Shown here in pieces: positions 7,155 to 17,100 of a DNA stretch of 53,149 bases (positions are counted from its first letter, which is position 1; each line of letters begins with the position of its first letter). Made by a program: the position numbers and the translations under genes. Under the pieces are notes generated by a model that made no database searches, was not told where the DNA came from, and was given only the letters and a program-made list of their open reading frames with translations. Source of the stretch: Spirogloea muscicola (taxonomy: Eukaryota > Streptophyta > Zygnematophyceae > Spirogloeales > Spirogloeaceae); NCBI GenBank assembly GCA_009602725.1, contig WELB01000026.1, positions 236,713 through 289,861 on the forward strand, read 5' to 3'.

Positions 7155-8918
7155 GAAGTCTCGCAAGACCGCCGCCTCACACCGCCTGCCGGCTCCGGAC
7201 GATGCGCCGCCGCCGCTGCCGCCGCTGCCGCTGCGGCCACCGGGCTTGCCGGGCCTGGAGATGCGCATGACGGGCCCGCCGCTCGGCGGGGAGCTGACGA
7301 CGTCCGCTGCGCCGGCCTCCCACCGAGACCCGGCCGCCGCAGCGGCCGCGCTCGCAGGGCCGCCGCCGCCGGCGAGGCATGCCCGTGCAGCTGAGCCGTC
7401 GACCCGGCTCTCGATTCTGTCAGCCAGTGTTGTGGCGAACGACGGCGCGCGGCTTTCAACGACGTCTTCGGAGAGCCCAATCTCCATCGCCACTGCCCAC
7501 GATCCCGGCAGCGATGGGCGCCGCAGCTTGGTCCCGTCCCTCCTGGGGGGCCTGCACGTCGTCTCGGCGGTGCCGTCCATCGTGGTGACCAGCCGCAGCA
7601 GCGGCATGGCGGCGGCGCAGTCCAAGCGCGTGTGCATCGACTACCGGCTCGTTGTTGTCGCGAGGGCCAAGGACTGAGCTGTCGGCCTGTGACGCACAAG
7701 CAAGGCCTGCATTCACCTCCTCGGGCACAGAGTCTGGCGAGGCATCATCCCGAGGACGAGCAGTGCAAGGCTTTACGCAGGCTGCTGCTGCTGCTGCTGC
7801 TGCAGAATCTCGAGGAGGTTTGGAATACCCTCGATTGAGGTCTCACCAGCTTCTTCATGAGGTTGCAGCAGCCACTGACTTTAGACTTTTTTCGTTTAGT
7901 CACAGTCTCCATACCCAGGTTGCAACAGGATGCATTTACATGTTGACTGGTATATAACTCCAACACTTGCAACTAGAAAAGATGTTAACACATGTATGGG
8001 TGCATGTAGACTTGCTGGCAGTATTGGTACATGAGATAGGCGACAAATGTCCATCGTATACTAGGCGCGTGTATTCGTGAGCCTGCTAACCTCACTCCCC
8101 GACTGTTCTCCAATAGTATGTCAATAGCAACTCAAGGTCTTGATCTGTTCTTACTGCTGGGGTACCCTGAGTGAGTCAGCACCAAGCAAGACTTCCCAGC
8201 AGTCTGCTCTGTACCGATTTAGTGGTGGCAGTGACGAGATAGGAGTGGGTAGAGAAGCACAAGAGTTGGTTCTTCTATGTATTGGCGGGTTACCTACTCT
8301 CAAAGCGGCTCCACTTGCCTCAGAGCGGCTCTACTTGCAAGCAACCCAATCGGCTGTGAACACATCAGATCTAGAATCACTCTTGCAGGGGGTGGCAATT
8401 ACTGAATCAAAGCATGTTGGGGTCCTCAATCACTCTTAGCTACTTCCTCATATTCTCCTGAACAGGCTGCAGATTGGGGCAGCCTTGTTTTCGTGTGTAG
8501 TAATCGTGAACGAGCTCTAATACCCAAGAAGCTTCCAATCATTCCCAAAACCTGCGAGCAGAGAAGAACTCTCGGTGTGGATGTGCTTGCCGATGGTTTT
8601 CCAAGGCTGCTCGGATCTCCTTCGCCTGCCAAGCAGATGACTGAAAGTGTGATCAGGTCCTTCAAAAGGGCACCTCGAGATGATAGAAGGCATCTGCCAA
8701 AGGTTGCCAGAATTGGCTATGACCACAATACTGACTGCAGGTTGTTCAACAGTGCAATTACACAGCCACTACTTACGAAGATGCAACCATTCCTCAGACA
8801 CCCAACTTGCCCCACAAGCAAGTACCATGTCTCTCTGGAGGTCTACAAGACACTGTCTAACATGGAGGTCTACAAGACACTGTCTAACACAGTATGCATG
8901 GCCACTTTGACTGCTTGA
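5918..8918 (+). CDS. Unidentified proline/serine/arginine-rich protein (weak gene model)
   Basis: A possible model joins MDK (about 5918-5926) to ISEKF (about 6052-6067) and then, through a CTCTGCAG acceptor near 6330, to a long open frame ending at 7677. That frame starts SETAKRIRYTCASDP and becomes strongly proline-rich, with an uninterrupted run of about 11 prolines near 7118-7152. Further downstream, about 8170-8391 and 8467-8700 look coding and join in phase 0 (DLESLLQG to AADWGSLVF); the frame then stays open to 8918. I recognise no domain. GC-rich DNA here is open on both strands, so an antisense frame at 6063-7637 competes. A cytoskeletal or cell-wall type proline-rich protein is conceivable, but function is unknown and the exon set is tentative. 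Confidence 0.3.
6766..7152. repeat. GC-rich low-complexity block with CCGCCAAAAGCGG-type repeats and (CCG)n
   Basis: Related units built on CCCGCCAAAAGCGG followed by CCCCGCGCCACCTCCCTCC recur between 6766 and 6875, then C-rich sequence leads to an uninterrupted CCG/CGC run near 7118-7152. It encodes proline-rich sequence on the plus strand and glycine/alanine-rich sequence on the minus strand, which is why both strands appear open. Confidence 0.7.
8836..8889. repeat. Perfect 27-bp tandem duplication
   Basis: The 27-base unit at 8836-8862 is repeated exactly at 8863-8889. In the plus-strand open frame this duplicates MEVYKTLSN-type residues. A perfect direct duplication suggests recent slippage or a repair event. 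Confidence 0.9.
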
Positions 8919-11900
8919 GGACAAGCTCCAGTAGCCTTACAAACACCCAGACACTGCAACACGGGCAGCATGTGCATGCTGTGGGCAACTCTAGATTGCG
9001 AAGATGCAGAAAACGTACATCAAGGCGACCGTCGTGGTCTGTGTCGAGCATCCTGAACACAAGGTCCAGCTCCCTCTGCAATACCCAGTAATTCTATGTT
9101 TGATGCATGCCTGAGAAGCCAGCTTAAGTACAGCCACACAAGAATAGACATGGCATGTGCTTGTTTGCTCTAGAAGAACGTGGCCACCTCACCTTGCGGA
9201 CGTTCTTGGCAGATGGGTGAGCCTTGCACAGGAGAAGGAAGTCGTCCTTTTTCACTATTCCATCTGCAGATTCCAAGGTAGTAATGATCCACGCATAGTT
9301 CATTTTAAGCGTTAATGTTATGCAGCCCTACTAGATATGTACATTGCCAGTCAGCGGTGCATATAAAGCGGAGTGCACACAAAGGACCAGCTCCTGTTGG
9401 CCAAGTCTTGATCAAGCAACAACTGAAACATGGCCTAGCTTTGCAGGATCACAATAAGGACTGTCAAACCATGGCCCACCTCGGCTAGCTACGGCCTGGA
9501 CTATATCGTCAATGTCGTCCATATGCTGAAGAAGGTCCCGAAGCGCTGCTTGGTCCTGCAAGTGTGGCTAGGACTCATGACGTCAGACAAGCTGGACTTG
9601 TCACCAGGCACCGTGATGTAGCAAGATCATACAAATACGCATGGTACCCGGCTTTCGACCAAACAGATGTATGGTCAATCAGTACGCAGAGACAAGACAA
9701 GAGAAGAGGCCTACTTGGGCACGTCTCCTGTCAGCCGTGCTCGGTCGAATCTGGAAGAAGTAGATGAAGATTGCAAGTATTGCGACTGAGGACAGCGCAG
9801 TGCTCCCTACCACATAAGCAAAAAAGTGCGGGTGGTCCTCCACCCCACTGAGATTGCGCCACATGACAGCGTTTAGTGAGGTTGCTTGGAGATAAGCCCT
9901 GACTGAGGCTGCCTGCCACTTGAAGCATAGATTTTCAGCCCACCTTGCCATGGCAGATGACTTGCCAACGAGAAGCAGCTTCGCAGTGAGACTCACTTGG
10001 GAATGTTCATGCCAAAGAAGGCAGCTGGTACAGTTGCCCTGCGCCCACATCAAACAAGGGCGATGCCGACTATTGGGTCTGATCCATTGCTTGCCACAGG
10101 TTTTAAATTTGTGAATTAACATGCTTGTCCATCTGTCATCGGCCTGAGACAAGTAAACTTTATGAAGGGTCATAAACTTCGAATGCAAGGAAGACTGTGA
10201 CTGTCAGCTTGCCGCATATTTGTATATCGCGGTCCATATCACGAGGAACTTTTGGGCATTGCAAGATTACAATTGTTGACAGGAGTTCAAGAGACTGTGA
10301 GGTGGTCTCACGAGGTCAGGCAGAGAGTAGCAATGGACGTGAAAAGGTTGATCCGAATGATGCGGTTGCGCGTCGTGTCCAGCCCTAGCTCCCACACCTG
10401 CCCGGACACCCAGGTCAGCAGCTTGTAAGCAGGCCGATACGCATCAACCTCCACAGTAACGCCTTCGTGCTAGACAAAATCAAGTACTAGTCAAAACAAA
10501 TGCACGTGCGTTCATCTGCAACGTGCTCAGGATCTGGGCTTTCACAAGCCAACAGACCTCTTGTGCCGCTTCCATGTTGGTACGAAGCTCCGAGAGTGCA
10601 CCCCCTACATCTTGCAGCTGGCACAAGCGATGCGAGCATGCCACAAGCTAGGTGGGTTTAAAGTTGGTGGAGAGGTTGGGAAGACTGAGCTGCCAGATGC
10701 AAGTCAGCAGCAGCAGGCCCCACGCCTGAATTAAAAGCTCAGTCTTGGTGGGCTTCCGAACAATTCCTCAGAAGCCAATTCTGCAAGTCCCAAAGATCCT
10801 CTGCCATGATCATGCTGAAAATTTCTATCCTTGCCTGGTACCTCGTTAGTGTAAGAGATGAGCATGTCCACTGTGGCTGCCTTAGCCTTGTGTTGCCGTT
10901 CCTCTACTGCCTGGGAGCCATTTCTGCGTCCTGCATCAAGACCATGGACAGCAGTGTGCCACGAGCTGGTGACAAGGAGCTCTGATGAGCTCGTCCATTG
11001 GTGGCAGCCTCATTGGTCAAATAGCATGCCATTAATGATTTGCATGCTATATCGTAGATACGTTGTGATTGTGTTGCAGCCTTGACTTACATTGTAGTCT
11101 AAGACGAGATGATCTGACTTGAGACCAAACAACCGACCCATTGTCACTCACAAATGCCAAAGCCACCAGACTAGCCCAGTGACTGCCAACATTCTATGAG
11201 GCACTCACTGTGCCCGCCAGAATTCGCGCCGAGATCATAATATGCCGAGTCGCCGACTGCCTCGGGCCAAGACTGCGGGGAGGACCCGTCGCACAGGAGC
11301 CCAAGCATGTCGTCATTGCCGAGCACCTGTGCAGAGCACAGCACCTCGAAATCGTCAGACAAGGTGAACACAATAACTCCATGCTGTACTTCCGTCTTGT
11401 ACACCAGCAAGTGTAGATCACCCAGAGCACATAATACCAACTATTGTTGAGAGAACGGACGTGCATAGCAGAAAGGCCGAGTGCCAAGACAGGGAGCTCG
11501 ACGAAATCACCTCCTCAATAGCACTGTGACTTTCTCGCACGTCATTTTCAAGGCTCGTAAGAGCTCCCTTTAGTGGCAGCAGGCGGTGCAAGCTTCGCCA
11601 TGACAAATCCCACCCTGATTGTCAGCCGTGCTGAAAATATATATGAATCGCCCAGCAGCTCGCCTCACAAAAGAGTAAGTTCCATTGCACAATCGATCTC
11701 AAGAATATCCACATGATGGATATTCAGAGCAGCCCATTATTGAGCATCACGCAAGCCCGTACCCCGCCAAGCTCACGTCCTCCGTAAGGTCCTCCAGCAT
11801 CCGTTCCACGACCATCCGCAGCCTTCTCTGAGCAGGAGGGAATAGAAGTGAAAATGGCAGCAGAATCTTTACAAAATAAGTCCTCAAACACAAAAATGAG

Positions 11901-13555
11901 TGACTCTGCAAGAACCTGGGTCACTCTGCCATTCGTCTTCGGTGCTTCTGAAGAAAGTAAAGCAAATGGTGATGCTGTTGGAAGTTTGTGTTGTGCCGCC
12001 CTGCCTCTCAAACTTGTGGTCGAAGAAGGAGGTGGTCTCGTGCAGGATGCCTTCGAGCATGCGGAGCCGGAAGGGCATGGTGCCCCACATGGGCGATGCC
12101 GGCCGTCGCTCCAGCTCTGACATGGTCATCGCAAATGCATCCGTCGACCTGGCAAAGACGATCAGCGCCTCAGCTGCTGATATCATGTGCGACGTCTGAG
12201 TAGCATACAAAGACACTTCGAATCAGAGCAAAGCAAGTCAAAGACCATGGCCTTTTCTTGGACTTTGCTGAGAGGCCGAGGTCACCCACCGGATGAATCC
12301 ACGGTGCATGTGCCTGTCGCCACCTCCATGGCCACCCTCCTCCTGGTCGCAGCCCTCGTCTCTGCTGCCATTGTCCTCCTTGTCGACCGACAGCGCTGTG
12401 GCGCCGGCGCTAAGCGGCCGATGCCGCTTTGCAGACGCCCTGCAGCACACCTCAGCAAGAACTTGCATCACAAATCCAGGAACTGATTTGCTGATTCGAA
12501 AAACGTGCGAGATAGCAAGTAGTGTGCAATGCTAGTGTCCTTCAAAGTTGGGTGCGACGCGTCGTGACTCAGCAGCTAAGACATGTCACGCATGCAGCAT
12601 CGGCATCCTGTACACTGCCGAGAGGGCTTGGGGCAGCCCGGAGTTCTGCAAGTGAGGAGGAAGGACAGTCCGGGGGACCGAGGAGGAGGAGGGCTCACCT
12701 CGGGCGGCGCGCATCGAAGAAGAGGGCGTAGTCCTCAGCCACCACGGCGCGGACATTCTCCATCCTCACAAGAAGCTGCGCGCGGAGCTCCGGCTCAGAT
12801 TCGTGGACCTCGGCCTCAGGGATGTCCGGCGAGGCAAAGGAGGATGCTTGGCGCTGTGGCCAGAGGGGGGCTCACTTTGTTACTGCGGATGGCCAAGACA
12901 GCCCGCTTAGGCGCGAACGAGGAGCTGTCGACCGCGTCCAGGTCCCGGGGCCGCATGCCCTGCAGCAAGCGTTAACGGCCAATAACGGCTGAAGCCTTCA
13001 ACCTCAGCGACACACAGCGCCGCATTGATTGGCCCATCTGCTGCGCAGCGAGAGCGAGAGCGAGAAGGAGAGGAGAGCGAGAGAGCCCCACCAGCTCGTC
13101 GAGGTCGAGAGCCATGCGTCGGTGCTCGCCGCCAGCGTCGAGGCGCACGACCTGTATGCAGCGTCGAGCAGCGGCGGCGGGCTCACTCAGCAGCTCCAAG
13201 ATTCAGAATGCCGACGTTGGCAGCTGGGTACGAAAGCCAAATCCTTTCCTGATTCTACACGTCATCCCGAAGCCTACTGCTTCAGGCGGACCTGGTATGG
13301 CTTGCCATCCGGCGCACTCGGCGCCAGCTGAGGCTCTGCGGCAGCGGCTGTCCCCAGTGGCGCTCTCTGCATGAGCTGCCGCCACACAGTGCCACGGAAT
13401 GGCCGCCCGGTGGCCGACTCCGCCTGTGTTGGTGCTGGTGGTGGTGGTGATGGAGGCGGCACGGCAGAGCTGCTGCGGCTGGCAGCCGCTGCTGGGCCTC
13501 TCAGCAGCCGCCGGGCCAGCCGCGCTGCGGAGCTCCGCTGCAGTGGTGCCGCCAT
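8884..13555 (-). CDS. MRS2: MRS2/CorA-type magnesium channel with C-terminal EF-hand-like tail
   Basis: Minus-strand gene starting at ATG 13555. Exon 1 (13555-13292) encodes an Arg/Ala/Ser-rich, acid-poor leader that resembles an organelle-targeting peptide. Next come 13151-13092, 12959-12876 (MRPRDLDAVD), 12775-12699 (LLVRMENVRAVVAEDYALFF), 12439-12286 (acidic insert), 12195-12014 (MPFRLRMLEGIL), 11825-11777, about 11590-11507, about 11330, about 10905-10843, about 10600-10545 and 10462-10300 (LDTTRNRIIRINLFTSI, end of the long helix and TM1). A small exon near 10030-10000 carries AFFGMNIP, the GMN signature. The exon at about 9923-9728 carries TM2. The family forms pentameric Mg2+ channels in mitochondria or plastids. 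After TM2 the frame continues in phase through 9556-9495, about 9278-9192 and about 9080-9022, which encode EF-hand-like sequence. The last residues and stop are uncertain; some mid-gene junctions are approximate. Confidence 0.85.
9022..9558 (-). other. EF-hand-like region of the MRS2 gene
   Basis: Three small exons downstream of the second transmembrane segment. The first encodes LRDLLQHMDDIDDIVQAV. The second encodes SRDGIVKKDDFLLLC, a degenerate EF loop lacking the first Asp. The third encodes ELDLVFRMLDTDHDGRLD, a canonical start of an EF loop with Asp at loop positions 1, 3, 5 and 9 and Gly at 6. Splice phases link all three to the channel frame (phase 0 after RRRAQ, then phase 1, then phase 0). 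The last loop residues and C-terminus are not resolved, because the simple continuation breaks frame. Confidence 0.65.
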
Positions 13556-14127
<572 letters not shown>

Positions 14128-17100
14128 ATGGCCGCTGCCGAGCGCCCCGGCGACGCCGCCGCCGCCGGCAGTTCCTGCAACGTCGCTCCCGATCACCGCC
14201 GAGTGATAGCCCACTTCGTGCGTCCAGCGCCGCTGCAAGCCCTCGCCACGACCGCTCGCCCGCGCTGCTGGGCGGCCTGCCCCTGTGACCGCCTGATGGT
14301 GCAGCCATGGCTGCGGCGCTGCGACGGCAGGACCTGGACTGCTTCTACGCACAGGTGGAGGAGCAGCGGCGGCCCGAGCTTGCCAGCCGGCCCCTTGGCG
14401 TGACACAGGTGGGCTTGGCTCTGGCTCTGGCCTTGTTGGCTCGCAGAGGAGCCTGTCTGCCGTGCCAGTCTCAGAGGCTGGCAGCCATGGTTGCCCACAT
14501 GTGTCGCAGGAGCATTGAACCCTGATAGCTCGAGAAGTCGGTGTCATGATTTTACACTACACGTAAGAGCTTACATGCACACCCGAGAGCGAAGTGATTG
14601 CCGTTGAATCAAACACTGACATAATAAAGTTCCGTATCTTCATCCTGCCACCACTCGATGTGGCGCTGCAGAAGTATCTGGTGGTGACGAGCAACTACGC
14701 AGCGCGGCGGCTGGGCGTGCCCAAGATGGTCCCCATCAGTGACGCCAAGAGGAAGTACGTATGCGGGGGCTGCCTTTCGCCACAAAGTCGGAGCCTCCTC
14801 CCGTCGGTCATTTACTGCTTGACGCTGGCAGAGGCTGGAGCTAGACAATGGCTGCGCTCGGACCCCTGCACTGGCAATGGCTGTTTGGCAGCTCCTGTGC
14901 TTTTGCTTTGGCAATGCCAAAAAATGTCTGCAGCAAGCCCTTTTCCTACCTCTGCTTCATATGCAGAGTGGAATCTGGGGCTGGCGCGCAGGTGCCCGGA
15001 CCTGGTGCTGATCAACGGCGAGGACTTGACGCCGTACCGCGCGGCTAGCCGGCGCATCATGGACGTTCTCCGCCGGTGGGGTACAGTGGAGAGGTGTGAG
15101 ATGCCGCCCACCTGAACGCCCGTCTCGCAATCCGGCTCCCCCAAAAAAGAGAAACGCTTGCATCGAGTGCCAAATGACTGCGCAGCCCAATATACGATCG
15201 CCACTTCAGAAGCTTGAAAGCGGGATCCTTGCTGAGCCTGTGCAGGCTTGGCCTGGATGAGGCCGTAGTGGACCTCACGGCGGAAGTAGCTGCAAGGGTG
15301 CGCGCCTGCAGCGTGCCGGCAGAGTACTGCGGCCATGTCGTCTCTACGGGCCCGGCGGTTGCCGCCGACCTGGCGCCTGGCTGCGGCAGCAGCGCCAGGT
15401 ACTGTCCAGAGCCCGGCAGCAGAGAGGAGGTGGTAGAGCTGCCGGACGGCACTCCGGAAGCTCCTACGCAGGACTGGACAGCGCGCCGAGTGGTGTACAA
15501 CGCATTCGAGAGCAGCGGCCAGGAGGTCCCAGCCGGCAGCAGAGGCAGGAGCCCGCAGCAGGGCCCGAGTGTGCCCAGGGCCCAGAAGCAGAGTGCGGAG
15601 GTCGACGCCACCGTGCGGTTGCCAGGTGAGGTCGAGCTGATGTTGGGCAGCCAGGTGGCGCTGGAGGTGCGGTGCGCCGTGGAGACCGAGACTGGGTACC
15701 GCTGCTCCTGTGGCATTGCCCACAATGTGCGGTGCTGGAAACCCCACCTCCATTCACACAACCCTAAACCCTAAACCTGATACTCTAAACCCGTATACCT
15801 TGCACCCTAAACCCCTAAACCTAAACTCTAAACCCCATCCTAAAGTCCTGGCGCAGCCATTTCTGTTGTAGCCCTTCCATGCATTGGATGACTGATCCAG
15901 CTCGGAGCTGCCATTGCAGAAGATGCTGGCAAAGATGGCGTGCGGGCTGCACAAGCCGAACGCGCAGACATCACTGCCAGCAACCGCGGTCGCCTCCTTC
16001 ATTGCGCCGCTCCCGGCCCGCAAGGTCAGCCACAACAGCCTGTCCTCTCACAATGACACATCTAGCAATCGGCTCGCTTGGACACCTCATTTGCCCATTC
16101 TTCAATGAAAACATGCTTACTAGTGGCATGGTATAGTGACGCTGGTCACTCTTGTGGAAGAATCAATAATGTCTTCACCCATCTCGTGATCAGTTAATAG
16201 ATGCAGCCATGTGCTCCAGCAGGAAAGGTAGGTGTCATACCGACACAGCCTACGGCCATGCTCATAAGTTGTTGAGATTTGATTCGCCTTGCACTGAAAT
16301 CGAAGCCATTATGCAGGTGCCAGGTGTGGGTCATCACTTCTCCAGAGCATTGCAAGAAATTGGCGTGCAGACCATCTCGGACCTGCAGCAGCTGTCGCTC
16401 GACCACCTCATCTCGATGTAAGTGCTGCCTCTTTCATGGCCTCCTCTCGACCCTTATGTCGTAGACTTTCATTCATGTCTTTCTCCAAGGTCTTCTTTGT
16501 AGCCTCCACTTTGCCCTTGTGTCTTACAATGATGTCTTCCTCCAAGTCTTGCAATCTGGGGTTAAATCAATGTTTCCTCACAAGTTTGCAATGGCATTGA
16601 TGTAGAGGATGCCTCTCCCTCCTCTGGGACATTAACCCCTGCTTTTTAATATGCACTCTGCCTCTGCCATTGTTTTCAACTGTGATAGCTCAATATATTG
16701 CGTGGCATTGGCTAGGTGCACTGATCACCTTTGCATTCTCATTCACAAGTGACAAGTGTCGTGACACTCAAGTCGGGCGCTCTTGTTGATCAGCTTTGGG
16801 CCGCAGGTGGGTGCCTTCATGCATGGAGCAAGCAGAGGGCTGGATGGCACGCCCGTGCGGGACAGGGGCCCGCCCAAGTCCATCTCCGTTGAGGACTCAT
16901 TCCGCGGTTGCACGTCCCTTGCAATCGCACAGGTGTGGTCCCAGCTTCATCCGATAGTGGACTGAGCAGCTTACATGAGGAAACCACCAGCTCACTAGGT
17001 GGAAACTCTCACTTCTCATGCTTACAATTCTTGTATTGAAATGGGTGCAGACTATCCTGGCCATGCTCGCCCCTGACTTCATTGCACGCCTGGACGAGGA

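Follow-up and report, generated by a model that had tools for sequence, protein, structure and literature searches.

The window analysed here is a stretch of 53,149 nucleotides from the zygnematophyte alga Spirogloea muscicola (contig WELB01000026.1, forward-strand positions 236,713 to 289,861). Its minus strand carries, between positions 13555 and 8539, a single gene for a Mg2+ channel of the MRS2/CorA type, which continues after its second transmembrane helix (TM2) into a pair of EF-hands. The gene was modelled as a hand-built chain of 18 exons read in three frames, from an ATG at 13555 to a TGA at 8539, and the spliced protein has 623 residues in the first model, or 610 when exon 4 starts at 12814. 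Two further copies of the locus, C11 and C48, are present in the same genome. The EF-tailed gene is real, complete and unusual, and represents a domain variant of a known channel family. An earlier note on this DNA had placed an MRS2 channel and a C-terminal EF-hand pair in one gene, which is borne out by the phase of the exons, the conservation of the splice sites and purifying selection in three diverged copies.

The channel core proposed in that note (long helix, AFFGMNIP, TM2) is found as described: the GMN motif (AFFGMNIP) follows the first transmembrane helix (TM1) and precedes the hydrophobic TM2. The Pfam model MRS2-like (PF22099) matches the spliced protein with 59 bits (E=5e-16), above its cut-off of 27, and the generic CorA model reaches 19.9 bits, below its cut-off of 27; a search of the alga's own genome with the CorA family profile gave no match. 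The top matches in the Protein Data Bank (PDB) are MRS2 chains, 8q8p and 8q8q (E about 4e-14; 3.5e-14 for 8q8p), which we take to be the Chaetomium protein; the human MRS2 structures 8tul and 8ip3 follow with E about 6e-9. Chaetomium structures are mentioned in the accessible part of PMC13311838.

Four exons (15–18) follow TM2 in phase, the phases of introns 14–17 being 0, 1, 0 and 0, and the basic linker RPSTADRRRAQ joins TM2 to the donor into exon 15. The earlier note had counted three in-phase exons; all three are confirmed, and a fourth, at 8625-8539, has to be added. The interval it gave, 8884..13555, is right at the gene start (13555) and wrong at the end, as position 8884 is the stop of the unspliced read-through only and exon 18 lies outside. 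Its reading of one degenerate and one canonical loop (DTDHDGRLD) agrees with the spliced protein. Loop 2, which is completed by exon 18, is canonical: DTDHDGRLDAKE fits the pattern D-x-D-x-D-G-x-L-D-x-x-E and is the same in 3/3 copies. The pair does not have two ion-binding loops, loop 1 (VASRDGIVKKDD) being degenerate and without an acid at position 1.

A domain search of the spliced protein, suggested in the note, returned MRS2-like and EF-hand_7 (PF13499) both above cut-off. The EF-hand_7 scan covered two of the three copies, with 37.1 bits (E=4e-9, cut-off 30) in the full window protein and 36.8 bits in C11. When exon 18 is left out, exons 15–17 give 25.2 bits (E=2.2e-5), below the cut-off of 30, and exons 15–16 alone match nothing in Pfam, in keeping with the degenerate first loop. 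Weak matches to XopAW and lanmodulin were discarded as plain EF-hand likeness, far below cut-off.

Exon 18 sits beyond a 393-nt intron with the donor GTACGT at 9018. Its acceptor is the sole phase-0 fit to an EF exit helix (acid at loop position 12, hydrophobic residues at 13, 16 and 17) among the 457 AG sites within 6 kb downstream. In random sequences of the same dinucleotide make-up (500 trials each), chance fits at pyrimidine-AG sites averaged 0.04 per 600 nt and 0.10 per 1500 nt. The last-exon frame, which the note could not close, ends with this exon in an exit helix and a TGA. The same last intron contains a 27-bp tandem duplication (GGAGGTCTACAAGACACTGTCTAACA) at about 8837-8890 of the window.

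Table 1. Exons of the EF-tailed MRS2 gene in the window
Feature	Position	Strand	Content
Exon 1	13292..13555	-	ATG, then an R/A/S-rich N-terminal extension; intact in 3/3 copies
Exons 2-3	13151-13092, 12959-12876	-	Soluble MRS2 domain begins (MRPRDL)
Exon 4	12699..12853 (as first modelled)	-	True start probably 12814
Exon 5	12286..12439	-	Acidic/glycine-rich insert, fast-evolving
Exons 6-9	12195-12005, 11825-11763, 11592-11511, 11326-11209	-	MRS2 soluble domain (MPFRLRMLE ...)
Exons 10-12	10930-10842, 10617-10558, 10397-10312	-	Long helix and TM1
Exon 13	9997..10038	-	GMN selectivity-filter motif (AAFFGMNIP)
Exon 14	9715..9847	-	TM2 and basic linker (FFQIRPSTADRRRAQ); stop-free up to donor CAA/GTAGGC
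Exon 15	9480..9555	-	EF-hand 1 entering helix
Exon 16	9193..9263	-	Rest of degenerate EF loop 1 (VASRDGIVKKDD; first part in exon 15), then exit helix
Exon 17	9019..9075	-	EF-hand 2 entering helix and loop residues 1-9 (DTDHDGRLD)
Exon 18	8539..8625	-	Loop 2 completion (AKE), exit helix IRAALENH, C-terminus, TGA

Residues 1-27 of the N-terminal extension include six arginines, and acidic residues are lacking ahead of position 46; the extension is likely an organelle targeting sequence. The junctions at introns 3, 6 and 7 are less certain than the others. The first model had a 22-nt intron 3, which was abandoned; since C11 and C48 have no AG at its acceptor (12854), exon 4 probably starts at 12814, and C48 has a 1-nt gap at the abandoned site. 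A coding reading of HEGVTVEVDAYRPAYKLL was also rejected, as the MRS2 alignment makes it intron. The inner Mg2+ site of human MRS2 (D216/D220) is not mapped onto the protein, because the mapping hangs on the uncertain splice of intron 7.

Conservation in three genomic copies

A search of the genome (153 Mb, 471 contigs) with the C-terminal 225 residues identified the copies C11 and C48, each of which has the core, the EF exons and the last exon; the weaker matches are other MRS2 genes. The three copies share about 84-86% DNA identity, and in their three-way alignment all 18 exons are open from ATG to stop in every copy. The EF-exon splice ends are GT-AG at the same places in 3/3 copies, including the donor after TM2 (CAA/GTAGGC). 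Intron ends were compared in all copies for 16 of the 17 introns, intron 3 being excluded because the acceptor first chosen for it is not kept in C11 and C48; fifteen are GT-AG and intron 6 is GC-AG. Counted per row of the alignment, the exons contain one gap run (6 nt, in exon 1) against 78 in the introns, 69 of which are not a multiple of three, and exons 15–18 have no indels across the three copies.

The substitutions point to purifying selection on the tail. In 16 of the 17 introns, with splice ends trimmed, 542 of 2628 sites vary among the three copies, and in exons 15–18 the variable sites are 5 of about 226 nonsynonymous and 12 of 62 synonymous. The synonymous rate of these exons equals the intron rate, and the nonsynonymous deficit is strong both against introns (Fisher p=8.7e-16) and against synonymous sites (p=1e-5), values to be taken as a guide only, because sites within one gene are not fully independent. 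Pairwise dN/dS over the same exons is about 0.16, 0.11 and 0.07, and loop 2 is identical in 3/3 copies of the 225-residue C-terminal alignment. The insert of exon 5 is without visible constraint (nonsynonymous 18/118, synonymous 5/35) within a constrained channel domain. For exon 1 there is no significant difference between the nonsynonymous and the synonymous rate (p=0.26), and the nonsynonymous rate is below that of introns.

Several genes of this genome occur as three diverged copies: the MRS2-EF locus itself, several EF-hand genes and some light-harvesting genes, on contigs C11, C26, C48 and others. These trios fit a triplicated genome. A whole-genome triplication has been reported for the zygnematophyte S. 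muscicola in the accessible part of PMC7994812. Other families differ from the trios, with the RuBisCO small subunit at four places and other MRS2 types at two or three; the genome has 68 exon matches for light-harvesting genes and 8 matches, at 4 places, for the nuclear RuBisCO small subunit. A small-subunit sequence joined from two exon reads, without a middle part, has its top PDB score with 9pvb (176.1 bits), followed by land-plant chains (for example 'small subunit 1A', 165.7 bits); Chlamydomonas 1gk8 comes lower at 144.8 bits, its match being split in two stretches, which reduces the score. Together with the trios this ranking points, though not conclusively, to a streptophyte alga. Scans of viral and other genome contig collections, all non-algal, with two to six short peptides gave no relative.

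Other MRS2 genes and known transporters

The MRS2-like family search of the genome gave 11 exon matches, none of them in the three loci of the EF-tailed gene, whose exons did not register with the MRS2-like model. The other MRS2 loci of this genome fit the statement of the earlier note that known plant MRS2 proteins have a short tail, as the open frame stops soon after TM2 in 9/9 loci examined. In seven of them the stop comes 43-48 residues from the GMN start (tails KYKRLIE-stop, KKLMLT-stop and ARRRHIL-stop). In the other two, C4 and C7 (GMNLRS), TM2 is in a later exon and the stop about 8 residues past it (YLRRRRIL-stop, YLRQRRIL-stop), with the junction of the GMN exon not placed. All nine tails are open-frame readings in which a splice before the stop is possible. 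The EF-tailed protein extends 146 residues from the GMN start to its end, and so lacks the short C-terminus that is a descriptive trait of plant-type members and not part of the superfamily definition.

A tblastn search with the EF tail around the nine other loci, several of which contain N, gave chance-level matches only (E 3.4 or worse). An EF-loop pattern scan of the same surroundings found one loop-like stretch, DASANGSLD, on the minus strand of L029 near 8210, 3' of the C7 GMN exon; it is without an acid at position 12, has no counterpart in C4 (L030) and is probably a chance match. Giant open frames at some MRS2 matches were set aside as runs of N in the two loci inspected. L024 and L025 (C181 and C51) contain MRS2 genes of a second type, which has a similar loop (GMNLLSTLEGHPHAF), ends in ARRRHIL-stop and may be the nearest paralogue without EF-hands.

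The EF-tailed channel is like the MRS2/MGT members of the CorA superfamily, which are found in mitochondria and plastids, in its GMN filter, its two transmembrane helices and its MRS2-like soluble domain, and differs from them in the EF-hand pair, with the 146 residues from the GMN start against 43-48 in seven paralogues. The SCaMC mitochondrial carriers, of which PDB 4n5x and 4zcu were among the matches, likewise combine a transporter and EF-hands in one chain. Their EF domain lies at the N-terminus, on the intermembrane-space side, and their fold is that of a carrier and not of CorA. LETM1 is a different transporter, outside the CorA family, and the EF-hands of MICU proteins are on separate subunits, not on a channel tail. 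In the accessible part of PMC13311838, LETM1 appears as an inner-membrane cation transporter with a built-in EF-hand, a likeness to the channel described here, and the MICU-gated calcium uniporter as a divalent-cation channel with a Ca2+ gatekeeper.

No report of an MRS2/CorA-EF-hand fusion was found in PubMed Central, and domain databases of eukaryotes may list such a fusion without comment. The accessible parts of PMC9909464, PMC10371168, PMC5516748, PMC13311838, PMC10284544 and PMC7865908 do not describe one. Nor is it mentioned in those of a 2025 article about Mg2+ transport in eukaryotes (PMC13022745) and of a 2022 review (PMC9276622), in which the term EF-hand occurs 0 times.

Proposed function and alternative explanations

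We propose, as the simplest reading, that the EF-hand pair of this MRS2/CorA-type channel gene probably serves as a Ca2+ sensor on the inner side of the membrane that alters Mg2+ influx. By homology, the channel subunit would form a pentamer whose N- and C-termini both face inwards (matrix or stroma), and five EF-hand pairs would lie at the inner pore mouth, each attached through the short basic linker that follows TM2. When Ca2+ rises on the inner side, it would load the canonical loop; the loaded tail would then touch the funnel domain or the inner mouth of the pore in a different way, and Mg2+ influx would be raised or lowered. We infer the pentamer, topology, organelle, Ca2+ binding and gating effect, whose sign the sequence does not define, and Ca2+ cross-regulation of Mg2+ flux is plausible. 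A stronger statement, that this is a streptophyte-algal Mg2+ channel directly gated by Ca2+ through five built-in EF-hand pairs, in one chain a coupler of Ca2+ to organellar Mg2+, is possible and is advanced tentatively.

Work on the human protein is in part favourable to the proposal. According to the accessible part of PMC10404273, hMRS2 is a pentamer; its funnel domain lies in the matrix, and its GMN loop is on the side of the intermembrane space. A tail that follows TM2 is therefore expected to face the inner side. Human MRS2 is a Ca2+-regulated cation channel according to work summarised in the available portion of PMC13311838, and its soluble domain binds Ca2+ weakly, at about 1 mM, in the portion available of PMC9909464. 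Since the human domain binds Ca2+ only at that level, the canonical EF loop could add a tighter Ca2+ site here. Ca2+ binding by canonical EF loops is usually far tighter.

Several observations weigh against a Ca2+ sensor in a single chain. EF loops also bind Mg2+ at millimolar levels, and loop 1 is degenerate. The donor after TM2 is not a strong consensus, and retention of intron 14 gives a stop 11 codons on (VGLFSCLVSAY-stop or near-identical) that is open in 3/3 copies, so a tail-less isoform is possible. Introns 15 and 16 are gap-free, which means that locally the selection test is carried by substitutions and not by indels. Exon 18 taken alone has few changes, and in one pair its dN of 0.047 is close to its dS of 0.058; because these numbers are small, the exon is supported mainly by its intact frame, splice site and stop. 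All of the conservation evidence comes from three copies in one genome. Finally, the authors of PMC9909464, as far as its accessible text goes, doubt a crucial role of Ca2+ in human MRS2.

The tail could instead be a Mg2+ sensor, with a canonical loop that carries Mg2+ when Ca2+ is low and free Mg2+ is near 1 mM and so adds negative feedback on Mg2+ influx, which we regard as unlikely. The millimolar affinity of EF loops for Mg2+ would allow it, and the D at position 12 of loop 1 is a residue that tends to favour Mg2+; loop 2, on the other hand, has the full set of Ca2+ ligands in 3/3 copies, and the E at its position 12 usually confers a strong Ca2+ preference. Negative feedback of this kind has a precedent in human MRS2, where Mg2+ is bound by the inner domain at about 0.14 mM (PMC9909464, accessible part).

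A role of the EF-hand pair as a structural or docking module, in which it stabilises the pentamer or binds a partner protein with little ion-dependent gating, is rather more doubtful. Loop 1 is without its first ligand in 3/3 copies and the constraint extends across the whole tail and not to the ligands alone, as such a module would have it, but the ligands of loop 2 are all kept in every copy.

Two adjoining genes, the first an MRS2 that closes shortly behind TM2 and the second a small one for an EF-hand protein of about 85 residues, would explain why the read-through after TM2 stops after 11 codons in 3/3 copies, like the other MRS2 genes here, and why exon 15 has an in-frame ATG 11 codons into it. 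Such a pair is improbable, as the spacer between the two parts is just 159 nt in the window copy, in-frame stops lie upstream of exon 15 in 3/3 copies, all three retain both the donor and the acceptor, conservation of exon 15 sets in at its first codon in each of them, and the spacer itself has gap runs of 50, 8 and 5 nt. A scan for AATAAA-like poly-A signals came up empty both for the spacer and for the 839 nt that follow the stop, and is uninformative either way. TGTAA is the poly-A signal of chlorophytes, and an argument built on it was dropped because the signal should not apply in a streptophyte and the AATAAA-type scan is equally empty before and after the EF exons. That the EF exons are an artefact of the gene model, chance matches or a decayed fragment, is hardly credible, given EF-hand_7 above cut-off in both copies scanned, the strong nonsynonymous deficit and the absence of indels in exons 15–18.

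Channels of the MRS2/CorA kind set the Mg2+ of organelles, and how Ca2+ signalling connects with Mg2+ signalling is still to be explained. A natural MRS2-EF-hand fusion would suggest that Ca2+ control has been built directly into a Mg2+ channel in the course of evolution. The gene is also a ready construct in which gating can be compared between forms that carry the sensor and forms that lack it. For a relative of land plants, a Ca2+ sensor on this channel would further bear on how chloroplast or mitochondrial Mg2+ could be steered by stress-related Ca2+ signals.

Neighbourhood of the locus

An Rfam scan of the window found nothing. Head-to-head with the MRS2 gene, the plus strand carries exons of a Y-family DNA polymerase at 14310-15115 (Pfam IMS, E=2.9e-24 for three joined exon reads). 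The shared upstream region contains a long (GA)n microsatellite at 13708-13950, with one N at its start, and matches to this repeat pile up in C48 and C11 as well.

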